A stretch of 64,000 bases of DNA from Saccharofermentans sp. (GTDB lineage: Bacteria; Bacillota; Clostridia; Saccharofermentanales; Saccharofermentanaceae): NCBI GenBank assembly GCA_024403695.1, contig JAKSRI010000008.1:1-64000 (forward strand), read 5' to 3'. Of the stretch, positions 1,186 through 59,402 are shown piece after piece. A program made the position numbers and the translations under genes. Below the pieces are notes generated by a model. It did no database searches and was not told the origin of the DNA. It saw nothing but the letters and a program-made list of their open reading frames with translations. The stretch's first letter is position 1. Every line of letters starts with the position of its first letter.

Positions 1186-2958
1186 ATGATTACAAAATCA
1201 GAGTTTGATGTTTTATATTTTTTGATGAAAAATCCTGAAGGTGTTACTCAGAGAATGATTGCTAAGAACACGGGGTATTCTTTGGGAAAAATAAATAATA
1301 TTGTTAGTGAATTAACCGAGAAAAAGCTTGTTGAAGATGGTAAGCCAACAGAACTTGGATTAAAGGAGCTGTCTCCATATAAGGTGAAAAACGCTGTTAT
1401 TATGGCAGCTGGAATGTCTAGCCGATTTGCCCCTTTATCCTATGAAAAGCCAAAGGGACTTCTTGAAGTCAAAGGTGAGATACTTATCGAAAGAGAGATT
1501 GAACAGCTTTTTGAAGCGGGAATAAAGGATATTACGGTTGTAATTGGCTATATGAAGGAGAAGTTTTTCTATCTTCAGGATAAGTATGGTGTGAAGTTAG
1601 CTGTTAACCCTGATTACTATAAGTACAATAATTCCTCCACAGTTTATTGCGTAATGGATATTCTTGATAACACATATATTTGTTCTAGTGATAATTATTT
1701 TATGAAGAACGTGTTTGAAGAGTATGTATATCATTCATACTATTCAGCAATTTATGGTGAGGGAAGAACTGAAGAATACTGCATGGAATACGATAACCAT
1801 GGAAGAATAACCAATGTAACAGTTGGTGGTTCGGATTCCTGGTACATGTTGGGTCACGTTTATTTTGATAGAGAATTTAGCAAAAAATTCGTTGAAATAT
1901 TGAAGGAACAGTACCAGTTTCCGGAAACAAAGAAGCAGTATTGGGAAGATTTATATATTAAGAATATCAAGTCACTTGATATGTATATTCAAAAATATGA
2001 TTCTGATGTTATAAAGGAATTTGATTCACTGGAAGAATTGCGTGAATTTGATAATGCTTACATTAACAATATGGACTCGACTATTTTTGCTAATATCTGT
2101 GGATACTTTGGATGTGAACAAAAGGATTTGGAGTCAATTAAAGCTATTAAAAAAGGGCTGACCAATACATCTTTTACATTTAAATACAACGGAGATAAAT
2201 ACATATATCGTCATCCTAGTAGTGGAAGTGAGACCTATGTAAGTAGAAAAAGCGAGTCAGCTTTTCAAAACATTGCTAAACAGTTAGATTTTGATGATTC
2301 ATTTGTCTATATGGATGAAGAAAAGGGTTGGAAAGTATCAAAGTATATTCCTGACCTTCGCGAAATGGATTACAACAATGAGACTGAGGTGGACAAAGCT
2401 TTAGACATCCTAAAAAAACTTCATGGATATGATACTAAAGTAGATTACACCGTAGATTTCTGGGATAAGACAATGGCTTTGCATCATTATCTGACACTTT
2501 CGGGCAAGGCGGAGTTTACTGGATACGAAGACCTACTTTATGAAATGAAGAAGGTGAATGCAATCCTTGAAAAAAGCACATTAAAAAGAAACTGTCTTTG
2601 TCATCTAGATTGCTGTTCATATAACTTCCTTTTGGACGGAAATAATCAGCTGAGATTAATTGACTGGGAATATTCCGGTATGTGTGATCCCGCACTAGAT
2701 ATAGGTACATTTATCTCTTGTTCTGAATATACCTATGAAGAGGCACTAAGAATAATTGAAAAGTATCTTGAACATACTCCGAATGAAGCGGAAACAATTC
2801 ACTATTGTGGATGTGTAGCAATGACAGCCTATTTCTGGTTTTTATGGGCATTGTTCCAGGAAACTAGAGGGAATTTTGTTGGAGTATGGTTGCTTCGCTG
2901 GTTTCAGATCGCAAGAGAGTATTCAACAAGAGTTATCGAAATGAATAATGAATTATAA
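1186..2958 (+). CDS. licCA: HTH - CTP:phosphocholine cytidylyltransferase - choline kinase fusion (LicC-LicA)
   Basis: Three parts are visible in 590 residues. Residues 1-62 look like a winged helix (MarR-like: TQRMIAKNTGYSLGKINNIV, then a wing). Residues 68-290 are a nucleotidyltransferase with the signature MAAGMSSRF...KPKGLLEV (about 73-95), as in LicC. Residues 315-590 are a choline/aminoglycoside kinase fold with HLDCCSYNF (catalytic Asp475) and the metal-binding LIDWEYSG. The expected product is CDP-choline made from choline, CTP and ATP. LicC-LicA fusions are known (for example in treponemes); the N-terminal HTH is an added part. It is the first gene of the operon and is followed after 12 bases by a second kinase. 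It is more AT-rich than its neighbours. No LicD transferase is present in the window. Confidence 0.88.
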   Translation: MITKSEFDVLYFLMKNPEGVTQRMIAKNTGYSLGKINNIVSELTEKKLVEDGKPTELGLKELSPYKVKNAVIMAAGMSSRFAPLSYEKPKGLLEVKGEILIEREIEQLFEAGIKDITVVIGYMKEKFFYLQDKYGVKLAVNPDYYKYNNSSTVYCVMDILDNTYICSSDNYFMKNVFEEYVYHSYYSAIYGEGRTEEYCMEYDNHGRITNVTVGGSDSWYMLGHVYFDREFSKKFVEILKEQYQFPETKKQYWEDLYIKNIKSLDMYIQKYDSDVIKEFDSLEELREFDNAYINNMDSTIFANICGYFGCEQKDLESIKAIKKGLTNTSFTFKYNGDKYIYRHPSSGSETYVSRKSESAFQNIAKQLDFDDSFVYMDEEKGWKVSKYIPDLREMDYNNETEVDKALDILKKLHGYDTKVDYTVDFWDKTMALHHYLTLSGKAEFTGYEDLLYEMKKVNAILEKSTLKRNCLCHLDCCSYNFLLDGNNQLRLIDWEYSGMCDPALDIGTFISCSEYTYEEALRIIEKYLEHTPNEAETIHYCGCVAMTAYFWFLWALFQETRGNFVGVWLLRWFQIAREYSTRVIEMNNEL

Positions 2959-2970
2959 GGGGGATATAGT

Positions 2971-3870
2971 ATGGCTAGAGAAATTGTTGAGAAGGATATT
3001 TCTTTACTCGAGGACTTACTGAAGAAAGTTTTGAATAAGGAAACATATAAAAATATAGAGCGTCTTGGTGGTTTAACAAATCACACTTATAAAATTACGC
3101 TTGATAACGGTGAACAATATATTTTAAGAATTCCTGGAGATGGTACAGAAGAACTTATTAATCGTAAGGATGAGCAGAAGAGTACAATGCTTGCCTGTGA
3201 ACTTGGTATTGATGCAAAGTGTCTGTTCTTTGGAGAAGATGGATTCAAGGTAACTGAATATATAAAAGATGCAATTACAATGTCACCTGAAACGATTAAG
3301 GAACCTACTAATATTGCAAAAGTAGCTGATATTTTTAAAAAACTTCATTCCTCTGAGAAAGACACAGGAGTTCCATTTGAAGTTTTCGAGATGGCGGCTG
3401 GTTACGAGAAAATAATATTTGATAGCAATGTAAAGCTATATGAAGACTATGATGCTATTAAGGCACAGGTTATGGATATAAAGACTGAAATTGACTCTTC
3501 TTGTGACATTAAAAAGGTTCCATGTCATAATGATCCACTATGTGAGAACTGGGTTCTTGGAGAGAATCAGATGTATCTAATCGATTGGGAATATGCTGGA
3601 ATGAATGATGGTATGTGGGATTTGGCAGATGTTTCTATTGAAGCTAGCTATACACATGAAGAGGATGAATTATTGTTGAAAAAATATTTTTCTTCATCAA
3701 TTGATAATGGTACATGGAAGCATTTCTTGGCTAGTAAGATCTACGTAGATTATTTGTGGACGCTGTGGGCAAAGACAAGAGTGCCATTTGATGGACAGCC
3801 TATGGAAGATTGGGCCACAGAGCGTTATCTCAGACTTAAAAATAATATTATTGAATTTAATAAGATTTAA
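2971..3870 (+). CDS. licA: Choline kinase-like protein (LicA family)
   Basis: This 299-residue protein has the aminoglycoside/choline phosphotransferase fold. The N-terminal lobe has GGLTNHTYKI and ILRIPG; the catalytic loop is CHNDPLCENWVL and the metal loop LIDWEYAG. It is expected to phosphorylate choline, or a related amino alcohol such as ethanolamine, in the cytoplasm. The start follows GGGGGATATAGT. It sits between the licCA fusion, which already has a kinase domain, and the transporter, so the operon carries two kinase domains that may differ in substrate. Substrate is inferred from context. Confidence 0.85.
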   Translation: MAREIVEKDISLLEDLLKKVLNKETYKNIERLGGLTNHTYKITLDNGEQYILRIPGDGTEELINRKDEQKSTMLACELGIDAKCLFFGEDGFKVTEYIKDAITMSPETIKEPTNIAKVADIFKKLHSSEKDTGVPFEVFEMAAGYEKIIFDSNVKLYEDYDAIKAQVMDIKTEIDSSCDIKKVPCHNDPLCENWVLGENQMYLIDWEYAGMNDGMWDLADVSIEASYTHEEDELLLKKYFSSSIDNGTWKHFLASKIYVDYLWTLWAKTRVPFDGQPMEDWATERYLRLKNNIIEFNKI

Positions 3871-3883
3871 AGGAGGAATAGAA

Positions 3884-4828
3884 ATGATAGCTGGAATTCT
3901 TGCAGGACTTACATGGGCTCTTGAGACAGTAATTTTGGGTATAGCTCTTGCTATGACACCTTTCGTATCAACAGAACAGGCGGTGTTTCTAGCCCCTTTC
4001 GTATCGACTTTTTTGCATGACTTTTTCTCTGCAATATGGGCGATGATTTACAACACAGTAAGAGGTAATTTGTTGAAAGTTTTTGCGTGCCTTAAGAAAA
4101 AAGGTGGTCGCTTTGTTGTAGTAGCAGCAATTATTGGTGGACCTGTTGGTATGACAGGTTATGTTATGGCTGTAAATTATATGGGTGCTTCTATTGGAGC
4201 GGTTGCAAGTGCAATTTTTCCAGCAATTGGAGCCGTTCTTGCTTACTTTTTCTTGAAAGAGAAAATGCAGTGGTATCGTTGGATTTTGTTAATTATTACT
4301 TTGTTAGGTGTTTACGGATTAAGTTATTCACCTGATTTGAATATTCATAATTTTTGGCTTGGTCTTATTGGAGCACTCATGTGTGCTTTCGGATGGGGTA
4401 TCGAGGCGGTTATTCTTGCAAAGTGCATGCAGGATCCAGATGTCAAAGATGAATATGCACTTCAAATTAGACAGACAACATCCGCTATTGTTAACGGTGC
4501 AATAATACTTCCATTAATTAAGGGATGGGGATTTACAGCAGATTTGTTAACTTCAAATACAGGATGGCTTCTTCCAGTAATTGCTATCGCAGCATTATTT
4601 GCAACAGTATCCTACCTTTTCTACTACAGAGCTATTTCTCAGATTGGTGCATCAAAATCAATGGCTCTAAATGTTACTTATACAGCGTGGGCAATTGTGT
4701 TTACGGTGCTTATCTTAAGAGATACTTCCGTACTGACGCCTGTAACTATTATTTGTGCGATTGTTGTAGTTGTATGTGGTATTTTTGCTGCGGCTGACTT
4801 CAAGGATATTATTGGAAAAAATAGTTAA
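3884..4828 (+). CDS. licB: LicB-like choline permease (DMT/EamA family)
   Basis: The protein has 314 residues and about ten hydrophobic segments, with the two EamA repeats expected of drug/metabolite transporters (the first half has AIFPAIGAVLAYFFLKEKM, the second ends in a matching block). The start is the ATG at 3884, because AAAGGAGG lies 6-13 bases before it; an upstream start would overlap the kinase gene and has no such site. Position directly after two choline-kinase genes makes choline uptake the likely role, as for LicB. Substrate specificity cannot be read from the sequence. Confidence 0.82.
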   Translation: MIAGILAGLTWALETVILGIALAMTPFVSTEQAVFLAPFVSTFLHDFFSAIWAMIYNTVRGNLLKVFACLKKKGGRFVVVAAIIGGPVGMTGYVMAVNYMGASIGAVASAIFPAIGAVLAYFFLKEKMQWYRWILLIITLLGVYGLSYSPDLNIHNFWLGLIGALMCAFGWGIEAVILAKCMQDPDVKDEYALQIRQTTSAIVNGAIILPLIKGWGFTADLLTSNTGWLLPVIAIAALFATVSYLFYYRAISQIGASKSMALNVTYTAWAIVFTVLILRDTSVLTPVTIICAIVVVVCGIFAAADFKDIIGKNS

Positions 4829-13373: not shown

Positions 13374-13901
13374 ATGAAGAAAATTAAGACAATCGTTTCT
13401 GGTTTGCTTATCGGTGCAATGATGATGTCTTTTGCAGGTTGTGCAAGCGTTAAGGCACGCGATAAGAAGGAAGTTAAGGATATCCTTAAGGAGAAGCTCG
13501 AGCTTAAGAAGGATAAAGATTTTAAAAATCGTAGTTATGATGACTATGATTATTTCTATGGCGAGAGTGGTAAGGCATATTTCTCAATCTATATTTATGA
13601 TGATGAGGATGATGCTGCTGATGTTTTCGATGATCTCTATGATAGTTATGAGGATGATCTCGAAGATGATGTATTCGATGGCAAGATTAAGTTGAAGTCA
13701 TCTGATACTTCCGGTTATGTAACATTTAAGGGTGAGTGCACAGATGATGATGCTGAGTGCTTCTTAGAAGATGAGTATTACTATGGTGGTGTTTACTATG
13801 CAGATAACATGGTTATTAGAGTAAGCGCAAGTAAGGATAAGGATAATGCTCGTGATGACGTTAATGCTTTCCTTAAGGCATTCGGTCTTCCAAAGCCATA
13901 A
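13374..13901 (+). CDS. Acidic lipoprotein, paralogue 1 of 3
   Basis: The 175-residue protein has a lipoprotein signal (KK, hydrophobic core, lipobox SFAGC with Cys at about 22), so it is expected on the outer face of the membrane. The mature part is very rich in Asp/Glu and Tyr (DDYDYFYGES; DDEDDAADVFDD) and ends with the block YYYGGVYYADNMVIRV and a helix finishing GLPKP. The same order recurs in the next two genes, so this is a tandem family. The function is unknown; the acidic, tyrosine-rich surface could bind cations or cell wall polymer. A good ribosome site (AGAAGGAATAAAA) precedes it. Confidence 0.85.
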   Translation: MKKIKTIVSGLLIGAMMMSFAGCASVKARDKKEVKDILKEKLELKKDKDFKNRSYDDYDYFYGESGKAYFSIYIYDDEDDAADVFDDLYDSYEDDLEDDVFDGKIKLKSSDTSGYVTFKGECTDDDAECFLEDEYYYGGVYYADNMVIRVSASKDKDNARDDVNAFLKAFGLPKP

Positions 13902-13927
13902 TCATTGATTATTAACTTAACTATTAA

Positions 13928-13956
13928 AACAGAGTCCTTCGGGACTCTGTTTTTTG
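13928..13956 (+). terminator. Intrinsic terminator after lipoprotein 1
   Basis: AACAGAGTCC (13928-13937), tetraloop TTCG, GGACTCTGTT (13942-13951) and a T run. The stem closely resembles that of the terminator at 14585, as if copied with the gene. Confidence 0.95.
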
Positions 13957-13993
13957 TTATAATTATTCATATTTAAAATTAACGGAGTGACAC

Positions 13994-14560
13994 ATGAGAA
14001 TTTTCACTAAAGTTGTATCAATGATTCTTATAGCATCTATATCTTTGGGTATGGTTGCATGTTCAGATAGCGGATCAAAAAAGAAGGATAAGAAAGACAG
14101 GGAAAAGAAAGAAAAGACAAAGGTCGAAGAATGGTCTATTGATGACTTCGAGGATTTCCTTGACGATTATACAGATGGTGATTACTTTGATCGTGATTAC
14201 GATAATTGCTATGGTCTCTTAAGTGATAGTGGCGATGTAGTTATCAATTATCGCTGGTATGATGATGAAGATGATGCAGAAGATTATTTTGATGTTGCAT
14301 ATTCAGGATTCGAGGAGGATTTTGATGATGACCTCTTTGATGGTAAGCATGATATGAAGCGATCTGGTAGCCAGGGCTATGTAGTATTAGCGGGAGAAGG
14401 CGAGGACGATGGTTCCTGGATATATGAGGATCAGTATTTTTATGGTGGAGTATATTATGCAGACCATATGGTTGTAACTATTATTACAACTAGGGATAAA
14501 GATAAAGCGCGTGAACATGTTGATGAAGTTCTGAAAGAACTGAATTTCCCTAGGCCATAA
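13994..14560 (+). CDS. Acidic lipoprotein, paralogue 2 of 3
   Basis: The 188-residue protein has a signal peptide with lipobox GMVAC (Cys about 23), then a Lys-rich spacer (about 30-45) and an acidic domain (DDFEDFLDDYTDGDYFD). The second half matches paralogue 1 block by block: DDEDDAEDYFD, DDDLFDGKHDMKRSGSQGY, YFYGGVYYADHMVV and an end of NFPRP. The Lys-rich spacer is unique to this copy. The start follows AACGGAG. It is probably a surface lipoprotein of unknown role. Confidence 0.85.
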   Translation: MRIFTKVVSMILIASISLGMVACSDSGSKKKDKKDREKKEKTKVEEWSIDDFEDFLDDYTDGDYFDRDYDNCYGLLSDSGDVVINYRWYDDEDDAEDYFDVAYSGFEEDFDDDLFDGKHDMKRSGSQGYVVLAGEGEDDGSWIYEDQYFYGGVYYADHMVVTIITTRDKDKAREHVDEVLKELNFPRP

Positions 14561-14584
14561 TTCAAGTGATAGTTAAAACAGTAA

Positions 14585-14613
14585 AACAGAGCTCTTTATT
14601 GGGCTCTGTTTTT
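14585..14613 (+). terminator. Intrinsic terminator after lipoprotein 2
   Basis: AACAGAGCTC (14585-14594), loop TTTATT, GGGCTCTGTT (14601-14610) with one G-U pair, then T. It is related to the stem at 13928. Confidence 0.92.
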
Positions 14614-14693
14614 CATTTGCAATCTACTTCGCATCGTGGACAAAATGTTAATAAAATGTTAACATAACTAAAAATAGATAAGAGGTCCTGAAT

Positions 14694-15245
14694 ATGAAAA
14701 AAACAACAAAATGCTTATCTCTAATAGTGATTATGATGTTGGCATTTGTTTTTTCAGGTTGTTATTTTAAATCTGCTACAGCAACTGAATTTGAAACTGC
14801 ATTGAAGGAAGAAATGGGTGCGCCAGAAGGTGGATATACAGTCGCAGCATATACTCCTGATAATACTCCTATAAGAGGATGCAATAAGGTTATTACATAT
14901 TATGGTAACGGTGTTAGTTGTACTTATTTAGAATTTCTAGATGATGACAGCGCTTCTAATTATTTCAATAGATATCACGAGAATTTTGAAGATATTTTTG
15001 AAGATAGTTTCTTTAAGGGTGAGTGTAAAAAGAGCACATCAGGCTCACGTGGATATGTTTATTTGAAGGGTTCATTTAGTTGTGAACCTGGAAGATCTCT
15101 TTTCGGTGTTGGCCAGACATATGGTGGTGTTTATTGTGAGGGTAATGTTGTGGTTATGGTAATTACGCATATGGAGAACACCTCACGCTTTGCGGCAAGA
15201 GATTTCCTTAAAAAGTTGGGATATCCTTATATAGAGGTACAATAA
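14694..15245 (+). CDS. Lipoprotein, divergent paralogue 3 of 3
   Basis: The 183-residue protein has a lipoprotein signal (KK, core, lipobox VFSGC with Cys about 23). The mature part is less acidic than in paralogues 1 and 2 but keeps the skeleton: FLDDDSASNYFNRYHENFED, FFKGECKKSTSGSRGYVYL, QTYGGVYCEGNVVVMV and a final helix ending LGYPY. It has gained cysteines (for example NGVSCTYL and VYCEG). AGAGG lies before the start. No terminator was found after it. Function unknown. Confidence 0.82.
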   Translation: MKKTTKCLSLIVIMMLAFVFSGCYFKSATATEFETALKEEMGAPEGGYTVAAYTPDNTPIRGCNKVITYYGNGVSCTYLEFLDDDSASNYFNRYHENFEDIFEDSFFKGECKKSTSGSRGYVYLKGSFSCEPGRSLFGVGQTYGGVYCEGNVVVMVITHMENTSRFAARDFLKKLGYPYIEVQ

Positions 15246-51146: not shown

Positions 51147-52256
51147 TTAGCCCTCCTCTTTCTGAGGGAGAACTACCCACGCTGTTGGAATTGTTCTGTC
51201 TGAGCGGATATTAGCATTATCAACAATTTCCTCACCATTAAGGAACATAGAAGAGGACATTCCACCATCGAGATTGTAGGCATTTACTGCGCCGTACTGA
51301 AGCATAACATCGATAAGATCAGCCATTGATGCGCCCATGGATGTTGTCTTACGACCTTCGATACAAAGGAGAATTACGGCACCGTCAGCTCGCTGTCCGA
51401 TAGCGGAACGTGGGTTGAGACCTCCGCCTGAACCATTATATACAGCTGGTTCGCCATTTACGATAAGTGCAGGTCCAAATGATACACCATCTCTAACACC
51501 AAGACTCTGTGCATATCCAGGACCCATAGTTCCTACTATGAGAACGTTATCTCTGTTAAATCCGCAGAATGTAAAAGTTGTCTCCTGTGGCTCTGGATCC
51601 TCAACATATTCACCTGTCTCTTCATCAAGAATGAGTGGATAACCAACATGTCGGAGGCTGCCCTGAGAGAAAACCATTCCTAGCGGATAGCCGCCCATGC
51701 CGAGACCACTTTCATCTTCGTAACGTCCACCGTTAATTCCAGCAACACCACCATACTTGTTGATGATGCTCTCGAGTGTCATTCCGCTACTTTCCTGAGC
51801 GTACGTGGAGATGGTTCCACAAATAACTCTAGAAGGGTCATATACGATCATAAGATATCCGTGGTACATAGGACCAGAAATCTCGTGTATCTCAATTCCG
51901 TCACCATCTGGGTCGAGTGATTCTTCTTCTGTTTCTTCGTCCCTTACTATGGCAGCCTGCTTATCTTCACTTTCTTTCTGCATAATTGTGATAAGGGAAG
52001 GATCTGTAATTTCATCGAATTCAATTACTTTGTTCAGATCAAGGATAGCCTGAATTTCTTCTTCTGACATAACGAGTCTGATAACATTAGGGCCAAAACT
52101 GGACTCCATCATGGAAGTTACGAATATTTCTCTAAAGTGAGTTGATGGTCCCTCTATTGCTAATTTTAGGGCACCCCAAGCACCTACAACAATAATAATT
52201 AAGGTTGCAAACAATACAAGAAAAAATCTACCAATTATCTTAAGAGCTAGTTTCAT
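51147..52256 (-). CDS. Phosphodiester glycosidase family protein (NAGPA domain)
   Basis: The 369-residue protein has a membrane helix near the N-terminus (about 8-30) and a C-terminal domain of the NAGPA/DUF2233 type: VAGINGGRYEDE, SAIGQRADGAVILLCIEGR and NLDGGMSSSMF. This family removes or exposes phosphodiester-linked sugars and appears in exopolysaccharide genes. The protein is anchored outside. The start codon ATG at 52256 lies 197 bases before a divergent GGDEF gene; the ribosome site is weak. Confidence 0.85.
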   Translation of the reverse strand: MKLALKIIGRFFLVLFATLIIIVVGAWGALKLAIEGPSTHFREIFVTSMMESSFGPNVIRLVMSEEEIQAILDLNKVIEFDEITDPSLITIMQKESEDKQAAIVRDEETEEESLDPDGDGIEIHEISGPMYHGYLMIVYDPSRVICGTISTYAQESSGMTLESIINKYGGVAGINGGRYEDESGLGMGGYPLGMVFSQGSLRHVGYPLILDEETGEYVEDPEPQETTFTFCGFNRDNVLIVGTMGPGYAQSLGVRDGVSFGPALIVNGEPAVYNGSGGGLNPRSAIGQRADGAVILLCIEGRKTTSMGASMADLIDVMLQYGAVNAYNLDGGMSSSMFLNGEEIVDNANIRSDRTIPTAWVVLPQKEEG

Positions 52257-55584: not shown

Positions 55585-58149
55585 ATGAATTTATTTAAAG
55601 CATTATATTTATTATTCATTTATCCCTTGCAGTTAGGGTTTGAAATACTCTTTGATATTGCCTTCAGACATATTCATAATGTAGGTGGTGCGATTATCTG
55701 CCTAAGTTTGGTAGTGAATTTATTAGTGCTACCAATGTATATGCGTGCTGATAAAATCCAGAATGAACAAAGAGAAATTGAGAAAAAGTTAAAGCCTGGA
55801 ATTAAACATATAAAAAAGGCATTTTCTGGTGATGAGCGTTTTATGATGCTCCAGATGTATTACAGACTCAATAAATATAGTCCAATAATGGTTTTGAGAA
55901 GTGCTACATCATTGCTATTACAGATACCATTTTTCATGGCTGCATATAATATGCTTTCTTCATTGAATCTTTTAAAAGGCTCATCATTTTGGTTTATAAA
56001 AGATTTGGGTAGTCCTGATGCCTTGCTTTCAATGGGGACGTTCTCAATAAATGTTTTGCCAATCATAATGACATTGATTAACATTCTTTCAGGAGTCATT
56101 TATACAAGAGGACAGTCGTTTAGGGAAAAGGTACAGTTAAATACTATGGCGATACTGTTTTTGATTTTGTTGTATAACTCTCCTGCAGGACTTACTTTTT
56201 ACTGGACACTTAATAATGTGTTTTCTTTATTAAAGATCATTGTAGTATGGGCATATACAAGAATTAATATTTTAAAGATATGGTTACAGACTGTTATCAA
56301 GATGGCATGTTCTGTATCTGTCATTACTCCTGATGGTGGTTCTGTAGCGTTGTTTGCTTTGGCGCAGTTAGTTATTGCTACACTAACAGGTTTGTTAATC
56401 CCATCAGCGATTATTGCAGATTCTCCAATTGAATTTGTAAATCCATTTACTTTTGATGGACCGTCTATCTTGTTGGTTTATTCTTACCTGACAGCTTTAG
56501 GTGTATTTGTTGTTTGGTTTTCCATTGCGTATTATATGTTGCCTAAAAAATGTCGAGTAGTATTTTTTTATGTTTCTCTGATAATGAGTTGTGTTTTCCT
56601 GATTAATTACTTTGTCTCGGAGAAAATCTTTTTGTTGTTGAAAAATGGTATCACTGGGAAGCTTTTATATTTATGTTTGCTTATTCTTATTGCGTATCTT
56701 TTGATAGTCGTATATAAGCATTACAGACAGGTTGTTAGGGTGATTTTGATGGGGGGATTATTGGTTCTCCTGTCTATGAGTGTGTTGAACATCTCCAAGA
56801 TTAGAAAAGAATATGCTACATTTGTTAAGCCAACTAATAATGAAGAAATTTCTTTTAAGTTATCTACTAGTGGTGAAAATGTTGTTGTAATTATGATGGA
56901 TCGCAGTCTCGGATATGGTTTCGAAAAGGATTTTGAATTACTTCCGGAACTGAAGGATAAATTTGATGGATTTGTTTTTTATCCTAATACTATTTCATTT
57001 GGTGGTCATACTAATATTGCATCACCTGCTCTTTTCGGTGGATATGAATATACACCAGATATGATTAATTCTAGAAGTGATGAATCTCTCGCAAGTAAAC
57101 AAAATGAAGCTCTTAAGGTAATGCCAATGGTATTTTCTGAGGCAGGATATGACGTAACTGTTATTGATCCTCCTTTGGCGGGATATACAGATATTCCTAA
57201 CATGACGATATATGATGATATCGATGGTGTAAGTGCTTATTACACAGGAGATGCATTTAATCCAAATTCAGACATGTATAATGCGGAATTGCTTGCAAAT
57301 CGTGAAAGAAACATGTTTCTGTACGGTGTGTGTGCGTCGTTGGTTTATTCTAGAGATGTGTTTTTTGATAGCGGAAACTACCATAACCCGAATCTTATGG
57401 TTCAGATAGAATACAATTTTGCTAGTTGTGCTGAATTAAATGGTGAATGGTATAAATCAGCTGATTGTTACTATACGCTTCATTCATTGACAGATATGAC
57501 AGAAATTGTTGATGATGATAGTGATAACTGTTTATTATTTCAAAACAGACTGACACATGAGAATGTTCTCAAATTGTATGATTTGGTTGATGTAAATATA
57601 GATAAAGAACAGTTTAGAAATGATGTATATGCGATGCCTAACTATAATCAGTGGACTTATTGGCATTTCTATTCTGGTGGAATATCTTTGGATGTTCTTG
57701 CGCAGTGGCTCGATTATTTGAAGGAGAGTGGTGTATATGACAACACCAGAATAATAATTGTTTCTGATCATGGATTTCCTGTTAAGTACTGGGATGATTC
57801 TGATATGCAGGATGGATACACTACAGAATTTTATAATCCTGCATTTATGGTAAAGGATTTTAACAGTACTGGATTTATCGTGAGTGATGAATTTATGACC
57901 AATGCGGATACACCAGTTATAGCAATGGATGGAATTATTCAAAATCCTGTTAATCCATATACTGGAAATCCAATTGTGGATTCAGATAAGCATAGTGGAA
58001 TTATTCGAATTTGCGCTTCACATGAATATTTTACTAATAGAAACAATGGCAATGTTTTTGACAATCAGGATGGATGGTATGTGATTACAAATACGTCAGA
58101 TACTAGACATACATTTAATGTCGAAAACTGGACACATTATGATAAATAA
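55585..58149 (+). CDS. YidC-like insertase domain fused to a sulfatase-fold domain
   Basis: The 854-residue protein has two clear parts. Residues about 1-230 follow the YidC/Oxa1 plan: a first helix ending VVNLLVLPMYMRADK, a basic coiled cytoplasmic loop, QIPFFMAAYNM and SFWFIKDLGSPD. The arginine usual in the first helix (R before LLLLP) is Asn45, so canonical insertion is doubtful. Four or five more helices follow (to about 410). From about 430 there is a sulfatase/alkaline-phosphatase-fold domain outside the cell (ENVVVIMMDRSLGYG, SFGGHTNIASPALFGG, IIIVSDHGFPV). The next gene is a TagF-like transferase, so both probably serve one surface polymer. The code is AT-rich. The fusion may move and process lipid-linked phosphate units; this is inference. 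Confidence 0.82.
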   Translation: MNLFKALYLLFIYPLQLGFEILFDIAFRHIHNVGGAIICLSLVVNLLVLPMYMRADKIQNEQREIEKKLKPGIKHIKKAFSGDERFMMLQMYYRLNKYSPIMVLRSATSLLLQIPFFMAAYNMLSSLNLLKGSSFWFIKDLGSPDALLSMGTFSINVLPIIMTLINILSGVIYTRGQSFREKVQLNTMAILFLILLYNSPAGLTFYWTLNNVFSLLKIIVVWAYTRINILKIWLQTVIKMACSVSVITPDGGSVALFALAQLVIATLTGLLIPSAIIADSPIEFVNPFTFDGPSILLVYSYLTALGVFVVWFSIAYYMLPKKCRVVFFYVSLIMSCVFLINYFVSEKIFLLLKNGITGKLLYLCLLILIAYLLIVVYKHYRQVVRVILMGGLLVLLSMSVLNISKIRKEYATFVKPTNNEEISFKLSTSGENVVVIMMDRSLGYGFEKDFELLPELKDKFDGFVFYPNTISFGGHTNIASPALFGGYEYTPDMINSRSDESLASKQNEALKVMPMVFSEAGYDVTVIDPPLAGYTDIPNMTIYDDIDGVSAYYTGDAFNPNSDMYNAELLANRERNMFLYGVCASLVYSRDVFFDSGNYHNPNLMVQIEYNFASCAELNGEWYKSADCYYTLHSLTDMTEIVDDDSDNCLLFQNRLTHENVLKLYDLVDVNIDKEQFRNDVYAMPNYNQWTYWHFYSGGISLDVLAQWLDYLKESGVYDNTRIIIVSDHGFPVKYWDDSDMQDGYTTEFYNPAFMVKDFNSTGFIVSDEFMTNADTPVIAMDGIIQNPVNPYTGNPIVDSDKHSGIIRICASHEYFTNRNNGNVFDNQDGWYVITNTSDTRHTFNVENWTHYDK

Positions 58150-58172
58150 TTATAGAAAGGGAAACACAAGCT

Positions 58173-59402
58173 ATGATGCTATATATTGATCCTGGTACGG
58201 GAAGCATGCTTTTTACAATCCTTATAGGTGTGTATAGTGTTTTGGTGTTTTTCGTGCGCTCTATTTTTGTAAAGTTAAAATTTCTCATCACTAGTGGGAA
58301 GGCAGAGACTGATAAGAATACATACAAGTATGTTATTTTTGCAGAGGATAAGAGATACTTTACGACTTTTGGTCCTATATGTGATGAGTTTGAATCTAGA
58401 AAAATTGAACTGGTTTATATAACTTCATCAGAAGATGACCCTGTGTTTTTTAAGAATTATAAGTATATTAAGCCTTTGTATTCTAAGCGTGGCAATGTGA
58501 CATATTCCAAGATGAATTTGTTAAAGGCTGATATAGTTCTTTCAACAACACCTAATTTAGATGTATTTCAGTGGAAGAGATCTAGAGACGTAAAATGGTA
58601 CGTGCATATTTTTCATGCTTTCGGAGGAAGTAGTTTCTATAGAATGTTTCCTTTAGATATGTATGATGCAGTGCTATTGTCTGGTCCTGTTCACAGACAG
58701 GAAATTAGAAAATATGAAGAGCTTAGATCTATGCCTACTAAGGAACTGATTGATACAGGTATGCCTTATGCAGATTTATTGTATCGTCGTAAGTTGAACG
58801 CTCCTGCTATACATAATGAGGAACCTGTAGTTCTTTTGGCACCATCGTGGGGTGTGAATTCCATTTTTCAAATGTATGGTGAGAAATTTGTTTCTGCATT
58901 GGTGAATACTGGTTATCACGTAATAATTAGGCCGCACCCACAGTCTTATGTTTCTGAGAAAGATATTCTCGATAAACTTATGAAAATGTTTCCGGCTTCC
59001 GACAAATTGGAGTGGAATACCGACAGTGATAATTTTGATGTGCTTAATCGAGCTGATATTTTAATATCAGATTTCTCAGGTATTATTTTTGATTTTTCTT
59101 TGGTATTCAATAAGCCAGTAATCTATTCAGAATTCGAATTCGATTTCTCTCAGTACGAGGGGTATTGGAATGATGAGGAAAAGTGGCTTTTAAAAACTCT
59201 TAAAAAGATAGGCAAACCTGTTGGTAAAAACTTTGAGTCTGAGCTTAAACCACTGATTGACAGCAGTCTTCATGATGACGGACGATTTGATATTTACGAG
59301 ATGATTCGTAAAGAAGACTGGGTTAATATAGGGGAATCTGCTAAATATGCTGCTGACTATCTCATCAATAAACAAAAAGAGTTGAGCGAAAAAATGGATT
59401 AA
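58173..59402 (+). CDS. TagF/TagB-like CDP-glycerol glycerophosphotransferase family protein
   Basis: The 409-residue protein starts with a membrane helix and the motif IDPGTGSMLF, then a glycerophosphotransferase-like domain: HIFHAFGG (conserved His), DTGMPYADLLYRR, VLLAPSWG, IIRPHPQSY and LISDFSGIIFDFSLVF (catalytic acid region). TagF-like enzymes add glycerol phosphate or ribitol phosphate units to wall polymers. It lies 23 bases after the YidC-sulfatase fusion, with GAAAGGGA before its start. The nucleotide-alditol substrate is not determined. Confidence 0.85.
   Translation: MMLYIDPGTGSMLFTILIGVYSVLVFFVRSIFVKLKFLITSGKAETDKNTYKYVIFAEDKRYFTTFGPICDEFESRKIELVYITSSEDDPVFFKNYKYIKPLYSKRGNVTYSKMNLLKADIVLSTTPNLDVFQWKRSRDVKWYVHIFHAFGGSSFYRMFPLDMYDAVLLSGPVHRQEIRKYEELRSMPTKELIDTGMPYADLLYRRKLNAPAIHNEEPVVLLAPSWGVNSIFQMYGEKFVSALVNTGYHVIIRPHPQSYVSEKDILDKLMKMFPASDKLEWNTDSDNFDVLNRADILISDFSGIIFDFSLVFNKPVIYSEFEFDFSQYEGYWNDEEKWLLKTLKKIGKPVGKNFESELKPLIDSSLHDDGRFDIYEMIRKEDWVNIGESAKYAADYLINKQKELSEKMD

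Follow-up and report, generated by a model that had tools for sequence, protein, structure and literature searches.

Enzymes of the LtaS/EptA/PptA type move phospho-head groups from lipids, and LicD is the usual ChoP transferase. Phosphocholine is added by PptA, a member of the alkaline phosphatase superfamily like the external domain described below, and Lic-1 and PptA were never found to coexist (PMC10434233). Cell-surface coating takes most of the bacterial phosphonate capacity, and the account of the phosphonyl tailoring (Pnt) pathway by Rice et al. (2019) goes no further than CMP-AEP, the enzymes past CMP activation being called enigmatic; nearby LicD-like transferases and glycosyltransferases are named there, while YidC and sulfatase go unmentioned (PMC6697681). 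YidC has a conserved arginine in its first core helix (R72 of YidC2; PMC8675477) and scrambles lipids in vitro (PMC10491306).

Within the window, the 64,000-nucleotide stretch of DNA that we analysed from Saccharofermentans sp., an uncultured bacterium of gut type, a fusion protein which we will call FAM is followed by a TagF-like gene, TAG, both open reading frames lying where the preliminary description had placed them. No description of such a module was found in the literature searched. The features relevant to the analysis are:

1186-2958, + strand: fusion of a winged helix, a LicC/PntC-type nucleotidyltransferase and a choline-kinase-like part, 590 aa
2971-3870, + strand: choline/ethanolamine kinase-like protein (LicA-like), 299 aa; PF01633, E 1.5e-22
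3884-4828, + strand: EamA-family transporter, LicB-like by position; PF00892, E 2.7e-19
55585-58149, + strand: FAM, 854 aa, YidC-like domain, five predicted TM segments and a putative external phosphotransferase of the alkaline-phosphatase/sulfatase fold
55585-56256, + strand: YidC/Oxa1-like domain of FAM, residues 1-224; PF02096, E 7.5e-23
56257-56868, + strand: five hydrophobic segments of FAM, residues 225-428, LtaS/EptA-like; hydropathy averaged over 34 relatives
56869-58146, + strand: external sulfatase-fold domain of FAM, residues 429-854; Pfam match and invariant catalytic residues
58173-59402, + strand: TAG, predicted TagF/TagB-like transferase, 409 aa; PF04464, Pfam and profile matches
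58173-58292, + strand: N-terminal membrane hairpin of TAG, residues 1-40, LYIDPGTGSMLF; near-invariant in 15 relatives

That FAM joins a YidC-like domain, extra helices and an external sulfatase fold, as originally proposed, is borne out by Pfam (60KD_IMP at residues 34-220, E 7.5e-23; Sulfatase at residues 703-735, E 1.6e-6), by the match of the family profile to structures of YidC (E 9e-15) and of sulfatase-fold chains including LtaS (E 0.003), and by 59 distinct full-length relatives. Since these relatives come from many genomes and keep the same domain order, FAM is not an assembly chimera. The extra helices appear as five hydrophobic segments between residues 255 and 404 in the averaged hydropathy of the 34 relatives, and the predicted structure, made from a two-row alignment only (the window and L031), has a pLDDT of 34. 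The window protein found one relative among genome contigs, in a Saccharofermentans bin, and no relatives of the fusion were found on the viral contigs or plasmids searched.

The catalytic residue that the preliminary description wanted checked is T476, which sits at the nucleophile position of the external domain and is invariant among FAM relatives together with D439, H658, D728 and H729. With LtaS, EptA and PptA (PF00884) FAM shares the Asp/Thr/Asp-His metal-nucleophile set and, judged by hydropathy, a multi-helix anchor ahead of an external domain, but it differs from them in the whole extra N-terminal YidC-like domain, in the obligate TagF-like partner and in the linkage to Lic/PntC activation genes. 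The Pfam name Sulfatase and the best solved-structure matches, which are sulfatases and a phosphonate monoester hydrolase, would fit a true sulfatase hydrolysing host or plant glycans. However, the nucleophile is a threonine within H-T-N-I-A-S-P, the formylglycine motif C/S-x-P-x-R is absent, the domain hangs on a predicted multi-helix membrane anchor and its gene partners are biosynthetic, and we regard a hydrolase as very improbable.

The YidC-like domain passes the TIGR03592 cut-off (87.5 bits against 84.3, E 1.1e-24) and resembles YidC/Oxa1 insertases in sequence and helix pattern. It departs from them in the groove arginine, in its fusion to transferases and in its many paralogues (1 to about 19 per genome, frequently in tandem). 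In alignment to B. halodurans YidC2 the conserved arginine corresponds to Asn45 of FAM (55717-55719), and the replacement noted earlier in the single protein holds across the family, with Asn in 56 of the 59 relatives, Ser in two and Gly in one. In rare genomes the modules are swapped: the YidC-like part (60KD_IMP, E 6e-34 to 8e-31) and the TagF-like part (PF04464) are joined in a single polypeptide, the arginine position is Lys, and a separate sulfatase-fold gene lies nearby, with the catalytic D/T/H/DH aligned in three out of four. One such YidC-TagF gene sits inside a Ppd-NTPT-PepM-ADH operon. The swapped form is known in only one FAM-negative PepM genome (G088); it was not seen at the PepM loci of FAM-negative genomes within the stretches read, and plasmids gave matches to its YidC domain only. 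A working insertase, merely helping to fold or insert the transferase or protein acceptors, would account for the good Pfam and TIGRFAM matches, but is quite unlikely given the Asn or Lys in the groove, the joining of the domain to a cytosolic transferase in the swapped form and the multiplicity of paralogues. Judging from these sequence features, the YidC-like domain of FAM probably has no functional insertase role any more. The earlier suggestion that this domain, in which the insertase arginine is missing, deals with a lipid-linked substrate on behalf of the external phosphotransferase domain is one that we consider probable.

The assignment of the next gene as TagF-like also stands, as TAG matches PF04464 with 52.9 bits (gathering threshold 22.1, E 3.8e-14) and its profile matches Cps3D (E 5.6e-9) and TarL (E 7e-5); its predicted structure has a pLDDT of 52. 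H148, RPHPQ (253-257) and DFSG (300-303) are conserved. TAG has in common with TagB, TagF and TarL the fold family, the conserved motifs and, as predicted, the CDP-alcohol phosphotransfer chemistry. In contrast to these enzymes TAG is short, carries the YIDPGTGS membrane hairpin, falls below the NCBIfam equivalog cut-offs for TarL (16.9 against 1000 bits) and TarB (15.2 against 500 bits), and has neighbour genes that make choline and phosphonate donors. LicD (PF04991) gave no match in either FAM or TAG in Pfam.

FAM and TAG are, by their sequences and distribution, a conserved two-protein cassette, and this membrane machine occurs in many Clostridia. Among 391 genomes, 11 have full-length TAG together with FAM, one has FAM only, none has TAG only and 379 have neither (Fisher p 1.7e-20, a value that ignores relatedness in a set of mostly draft bins). 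A same-strand FAM adjoins 72 of the 75 TAG genes sampled in FAM loci, and a single TAG is often shared among several FAM paralogues. Many FAM loci are bare cassettes with no glycan genes. For the window copy a wider biosynthetic operon was sought, and the adjacent genes are not kept beyond close kin.

What is new is the recurrent siting of the cassette beside genes for cytidylyl-activated head groups. Of 87 loci, 28 have such a gene no more than 6 kb away; in the other 59 no activation gene is found within that distance, and it may be sited elsewhere in the genome. In 60 loci fetched regardless of head-group genes PepM was observed eight times against 0.36 expected (p 5.5e-9), and in 27 loci choline-kinase genes were observed nine times against 0.21 (p 2e-12), both p values ignoring relatedness. 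The neighbours are of four types: PepM-Ppd-AEPT-PntC for CMP-aminoethylphosphonate, PepM-Ppd-ADH for CMP-hydroxyethylphosphonate, LicA/LicC for CDP-choline, and a decarboxylase-nucleotidyltransferase fusion. PepM (TIGR02320), Ppd (TIGR03297) and AEP transaminase (TIGR03301) are over cut-off, and nucleotidyltransferase and CTP_transf domains, Fe-ADH, BCCT and choline kinase were also identified. Ppd, AEP transaminase, the PntC-like nucleotidyltransferase and PepM, often fused to a MobA-like NTP transferase or CTP_transf, are shared with the Pnt pathway, and a complete FAM-Ppd-PepM-AEPT-PntC-TAG cluster is found in another class (L209). The TAG and FAM trees show no fewer than 12-13 changes of head group, and therefore the linkage is recurrent and not one inherited accident. 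On the TAG tree, however, the head-group label clusters no more than taxon explains, so no specificity can be read from it. Across the family the presence/absence counts of FAM against PepM are 84/12/5/14 (p 1.7e-7, ignoring relatedness); five PepM-positive genomes lack FAM, which is thus dispensable for phosphonate makers, and in eight FAM genomes (64-89% complete) neither PepM nor choline kinase was found.

In the window genome the lic operon (1186-4828) lies 51 kb from the cassette and PepM is on another contig. The 590 aa fusion is, from its domain content, the likely source of CDP-choline or a like donor. The same NTPT-kinase-EamA order comes immediately after FAM in L134, and choline/ethanolamine kinase-like genes adjoin FAM in other genomes. 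These loci share with Lic-1 (LicA, LicB, LicC, LicD) the LicA- and LicC-like genes together with a transporter of the EamA family. The difference is that FAM and/or TAG adjoin the lic genes, and that LicD, present in 10 of 18 FAM genomes, was not found in the other eight, among them all four f2 genomes, three of which have a choline kinase adjoining the cassette.

These observations bear on the polymer elongation which the preliminary description had assigned to TAG. In that case TAG would polymerise alditol-phosphate from CDP-alditol, FAM would add phosphoglycerol from phosphatidylglycerol outside in the manner of LtaS, and the head-group genes would serve decoration by other enzymes. PF04464 and PF00884 are indeed the classical teichoic-acid families, and LicD is available in the 10 genomes. 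Nevertheless, we consider elongation unlikely and find it unsupported: TAG has ~410 residues, is far under the TarL and TarB cut-offs and often serves several FAM paralogues, no stand-alone glycerol-3-phosphate cytidylyltransferase was seen among the recurrent neighbours, LicD was not found in eight genomes, and many loci are the bare cassettes described above. Since the recurrent neighbours make single cytidylyl-activated head groups (phosphonates, phosphocholine and probably phosphoethanolamine), the co-occurrence check indicates decoration, not polymer synthesis. The module itself is real and conserved, and probably concerned with surface phospho-chemistry.

Decoration with CDP/CMP-activated head groups is, in our opinion, the likely general role of FAM and TAG, and they are fairly probably the transferase arm of such a surface pathway; most likely they both translocate small charged groups through the membrane and link them to the cell surface. 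Our best model is a route alternative to LicD, in which LicC/PntC-type cytidylyltransferases inside the cell would make CDP-choline, CMP-aminoethylphosphonate, CMP-hydroxyethylphosphonate or, probably, CDP-ethanolamine. TAG, anchored by its YIDPGTGS hairpin, would load a membrane lipid with phospho- or phosphono-X from the CDP/CMP donor, this lipid would then be brought to the outer leaflet by the YidC-like domain of FAM, whose family scrambles lipids in vitro, and the external domain would take X on Thr476 and donate it to a glycan or protein at the cell surface. This last step is suggested by the catalytic residues and the homology to LtaS/EptA/PptA, and the donor, acceptor and direction of transfer throughout are those that we infer. 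The three-step lipid route is plausible but tentative. At the level of sequence we observe two architectures, invariant active sites, obligate pairing, recurrent activation-gene linkage and the alternative YidC-TagF fusion. Alternatively, TAG could itself substitute for LicD by putting the head group on a lipid-linked glycan inside, with FAM an independent phosphoglycerol/phosphoethanolamine transferase on ordinary phospholipids and YidC an aid to flipping. TAG does occur beside choline genes with no adjacent FAM (L235) and with PepM genes (L214), and one genome (G001) has FAM without TAG. However, there is no TAG-only genome among the 391, FAM stands alone beside choline genes in L134 and L139, and YidC occurs fused to either enzyme, and so we find this independence of the two proteins rather unlikely.

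For Clostridia of the gut and rumen, in which coats of phosphonate and phosphocholine would influence host recognition and phosphorus cycling, the FAM/TAG cassette is a concrete candidate for post-CMP transfer. A YidC-fold domain in lipid chemistry also matters for the claim, made recently, that insertases scramble lipids. It is conceivable, though still speculative, that the YidC/Oxa1 fold has here become a dedicated lipid scramblase that works as a unit with a CDP/CMP-X transferase on the inner side and a Thr-phosphotransferase on the outer side. Phosphonates, phosphocholine and phosphoethanolamine would then arrive at the surface by an inside-out relay on lipids and not through LicD. If the relay is true, it would fill in the transfer steps that are still missing from phosphonate tailoring in bacteria and provide a YidC-family protein with a non-protein substrate.

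Both open reading frames of the cassette were confirmed where the preliminary description had placed them:

55585-58149 (+), FAM, 854 aa, fusion of a YidC-like domain, five TM segments and a sulfatase-fold domain
58173-59402 (+), TAG, 409 aa, TagF/TagB-like partner protein

FAM matches 60KD_IMP at residues 34-220 (E 7.5e-23), scores above the cut-off of NCBIfam TIGR03592 and, as a profile of 34 relatives, matches YidC structures at E 9e-15. There is a Sulfatase match near its C-terminus (E 1.6e-6), where the same profile matches phosphonate monoester hydrolase, sulfatases and LtaS, and five further hydrophobic segments (residues 255-404) lie between the two parts, so that from its sequence FAM looks like a YidC core followed by an apparently complete five-helix LtaS/EptA-type enzyme. 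Since the C-terminus of YidC is inside and five more crossings follow, the catalytic domain would be located outside the cell. D439, T476, H658, D728 and H729 are invariant across 59 relatives; the position of the YidC groove arginine (Asn45 in FAM) is Asn in 56, Ser in two and Gly in one. TAG belongs to PF04464 (E 3.8e-14). Its H148, RPHPQ and DFSG motifs are conserved, and its N-terminal hairpin, LYIDPGTGSMLF, is almost invariant. AlphaFold predictions from shallow input alignments gave pLDDT of 34 for FAM and 52 for TAG, and the fold assignments of both are therefore based on sequence. A 721 aa TAG homologue (fetched locus L140:10535-12700) has ~300 additional residues without a second Pfam match.

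The two genes are tightly paired: of the 75 TAG genes in the 87 loci fetched, 72 adjoin a same-strand FAM, in either order, and in a class sample of 391 genomes FAM is found in 12 and full TAG in 11, all 11 of them with FAM (p 1.7e-20). FAM is present in 100 of 115 genomes of the window's family (E 0.001; four of the 100 matched weakly), in a second family of the same order (one genus), in ~5% of genera of one very large family of the class (12/250 genomes), probably Lachnospiraceae, and in a single genome from another class. Most members of the window's genus carry from 1 to ~19 copies per genome; the window's genome has three FAM-TAG pairs. Several tandem FAM genes sharing one TAG are common (L113-L119), and paralogue expansion in L114 (G075:C37:1-20000) has placed up to eight tandem FAM genes or fragments with one TAG.

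Generic neighbours of the FAM-TAG loci compared showed no conservation. The recurrent theme is genes that activate a head group X (phosphonate, phosphocholine or, probably, phosphoethanolamine) as CMP/CDP-X, in four sets:

Set a: PepM, Ppd, AEP transaminase and LicC/PntC-like nucleotidyltransferase; CMP-aminoethylphosphonate pathway
Set b: a fusion of PepM, MobA-like NTP transferase and CTP_transf, plus Ppd and Fe-ADH; expected CMP-hydroxyethylphosphonate pathway
Set c: choline kinase, LicC-like nucleotidyltransferase (some with fused winged helix), BCCT or EamA transporters; CDP-choline
Set d: fusion of a nucleotidyltransferase with a PLP enzyme that is CobD/HisC-like, scores under the CobD cut-off and may be a phosphoserine decarboxylase, yielding CDP-ethanolamine

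Members of these sets occur within 6 kb of FAM-TAG in 12 of 60 loci taken regardless of them and in 16 of the remaining 27. With relatedness ignored, PepM is near the cassette in 8 cases vs 0.36 expected (p 5.5e-9), choline kinase in 9 vs 0.21 (p 2e-12), and FAM and PepM co-occur across the window's family (84/12/5/14, p 1.7e-7). The linkage is recurrent, as the TAG and FAM trees show 12-13 changes of head group, and in the other class a single cluster (L209) holds all parts in the order FAM-Ppd-PepM-AEPT-PntC-TAG. Two loci (L226:13147-15429 and L229:12787-15084) encode a 760 aa nucleotidyltransferase, CTP_transf and Fe-ADH fusion adjoining AEP genes, so that one operon might supply two phosphonate head groups. 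PepM scores above its curated cut-off in 86/115 genomes of the window's Saccharofermentans-like family, and phosphonate production looks near-universal in two of its genera.

The window's genome has two such operons:

1186-4828, lic-type operon in the window: winged helix, LicC-like nucleotidyltransferase and choline-kinase-like domain in a single protein (1186-2958), then a second choline kinase and an EamA transporter
L186:8771-12947 (G000:C17, a separate contig), operon of a PepM fusion (nucleotidyltransferase, CTP_transf and PepM), Fe-ADH-like and Ppd-like genes; expected product CMP-hydroxyethylphosphonate

The lic operon is 51 kb from the cassette, and the window's own FAM-TAG is tied to head-group pathways through family evidence, without adjacency; in another genome (L134) nucleotidyltransferase, kinase and EamA genes follow directly after FAM, in the window's order. 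The three-domain architecture of the 1186-2958 protein recurs across several families. Elsewhere in the window are three small lipoprotein-like genes of similar length in tandem (13374-15245) and, 3.3 kb from the cassette, a phosphodiester glycosidase (51147-52256; NAGPA, PF09992, E 8.9e-33), which could act on phosphodiester-linked surface sugars.

LicD is the usual ChoP transferase, and it was not found in 8 of the 18 FAM genomes in which it was sought. A choline kinase is present in all four second-family genomes, beside FAM-TAG in three, with no LicD and no PepM above cut-off; these genomes are 85-87% complete and absence there is thus suggestive only. LicD was also not found in two more complete genomes, G726 (98%) and G596 (99%). 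In a ChoP survey Lic-1 and PptA were never seen coexisting (PMC10434233), whereas here FAM, of the same superfamily as PptA but not PptA itself, adjoins lic genes.

Weak TAG matches in four genomes proved to be a swapped form, with a YidC domain joined directly to the TagF-like core:

L210:8444-10342, YidC-TagF fusion, within a Ppd-nucleotidyltransferase-PepM-ADH operon
L211:9048-11180, YidC-TagF fusion
L213:6791-8695, YidC-TagF fusion
L212:9556-11964, YidC-TagF fusion

They match 60KD_IMP (E 6e-34 to 8e-31) together with PF04464, and their arginine site is Lys. A separate sulfatase-fold gene is adjacent or a few genes away, and its D, T, H and DH align with FAM in three of the four; the L210 gene has an uncertain Thr alignment and no Pfam match, and the L211 gene starts with a YIDP hairpin resembling that of TAG. 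The YidC domain rides on either enzyme, which is the pattern expected if all work as one unit, and we suggest from these sequences that the YidC, TagF-like and sulfatase-fold parts may act as such.

CMP-AEP activation was established by Rice et al., 2019, who termed the later steps enigmatic (PMC6697681); YidC and sulfatase are absent from the text of that paper. Neither fusion was found described in the literature searched, with subscription papers largely outside its scope. Each part belongs to a known superfamily; what appears new is their combination, the module swap and the link to these pathways.

PF04464 enzymes transfer a phospho-alcohol from a CDP donor, and LtaS/EptA/PptA enzymes transfer lipid head groups via a Thr intermediate. 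With the parts acting as one unit, TAG would charge a lipid with X taken from CMP/CDP-X, the loaded lipid would cross the membrane via the YidC domain, and the outer FAM domain would move X onto the surface; the main rival to this scheme has TAG decorating a lipid-linked glycan by itself, with a separate role for FAM. YidC has been shown to scramble lipids in vitro, along a route that simulations locate in its groove (PMC10491306). One TAG accompanied by several FAM paralogues would fit one shared donor serving several acceptors.
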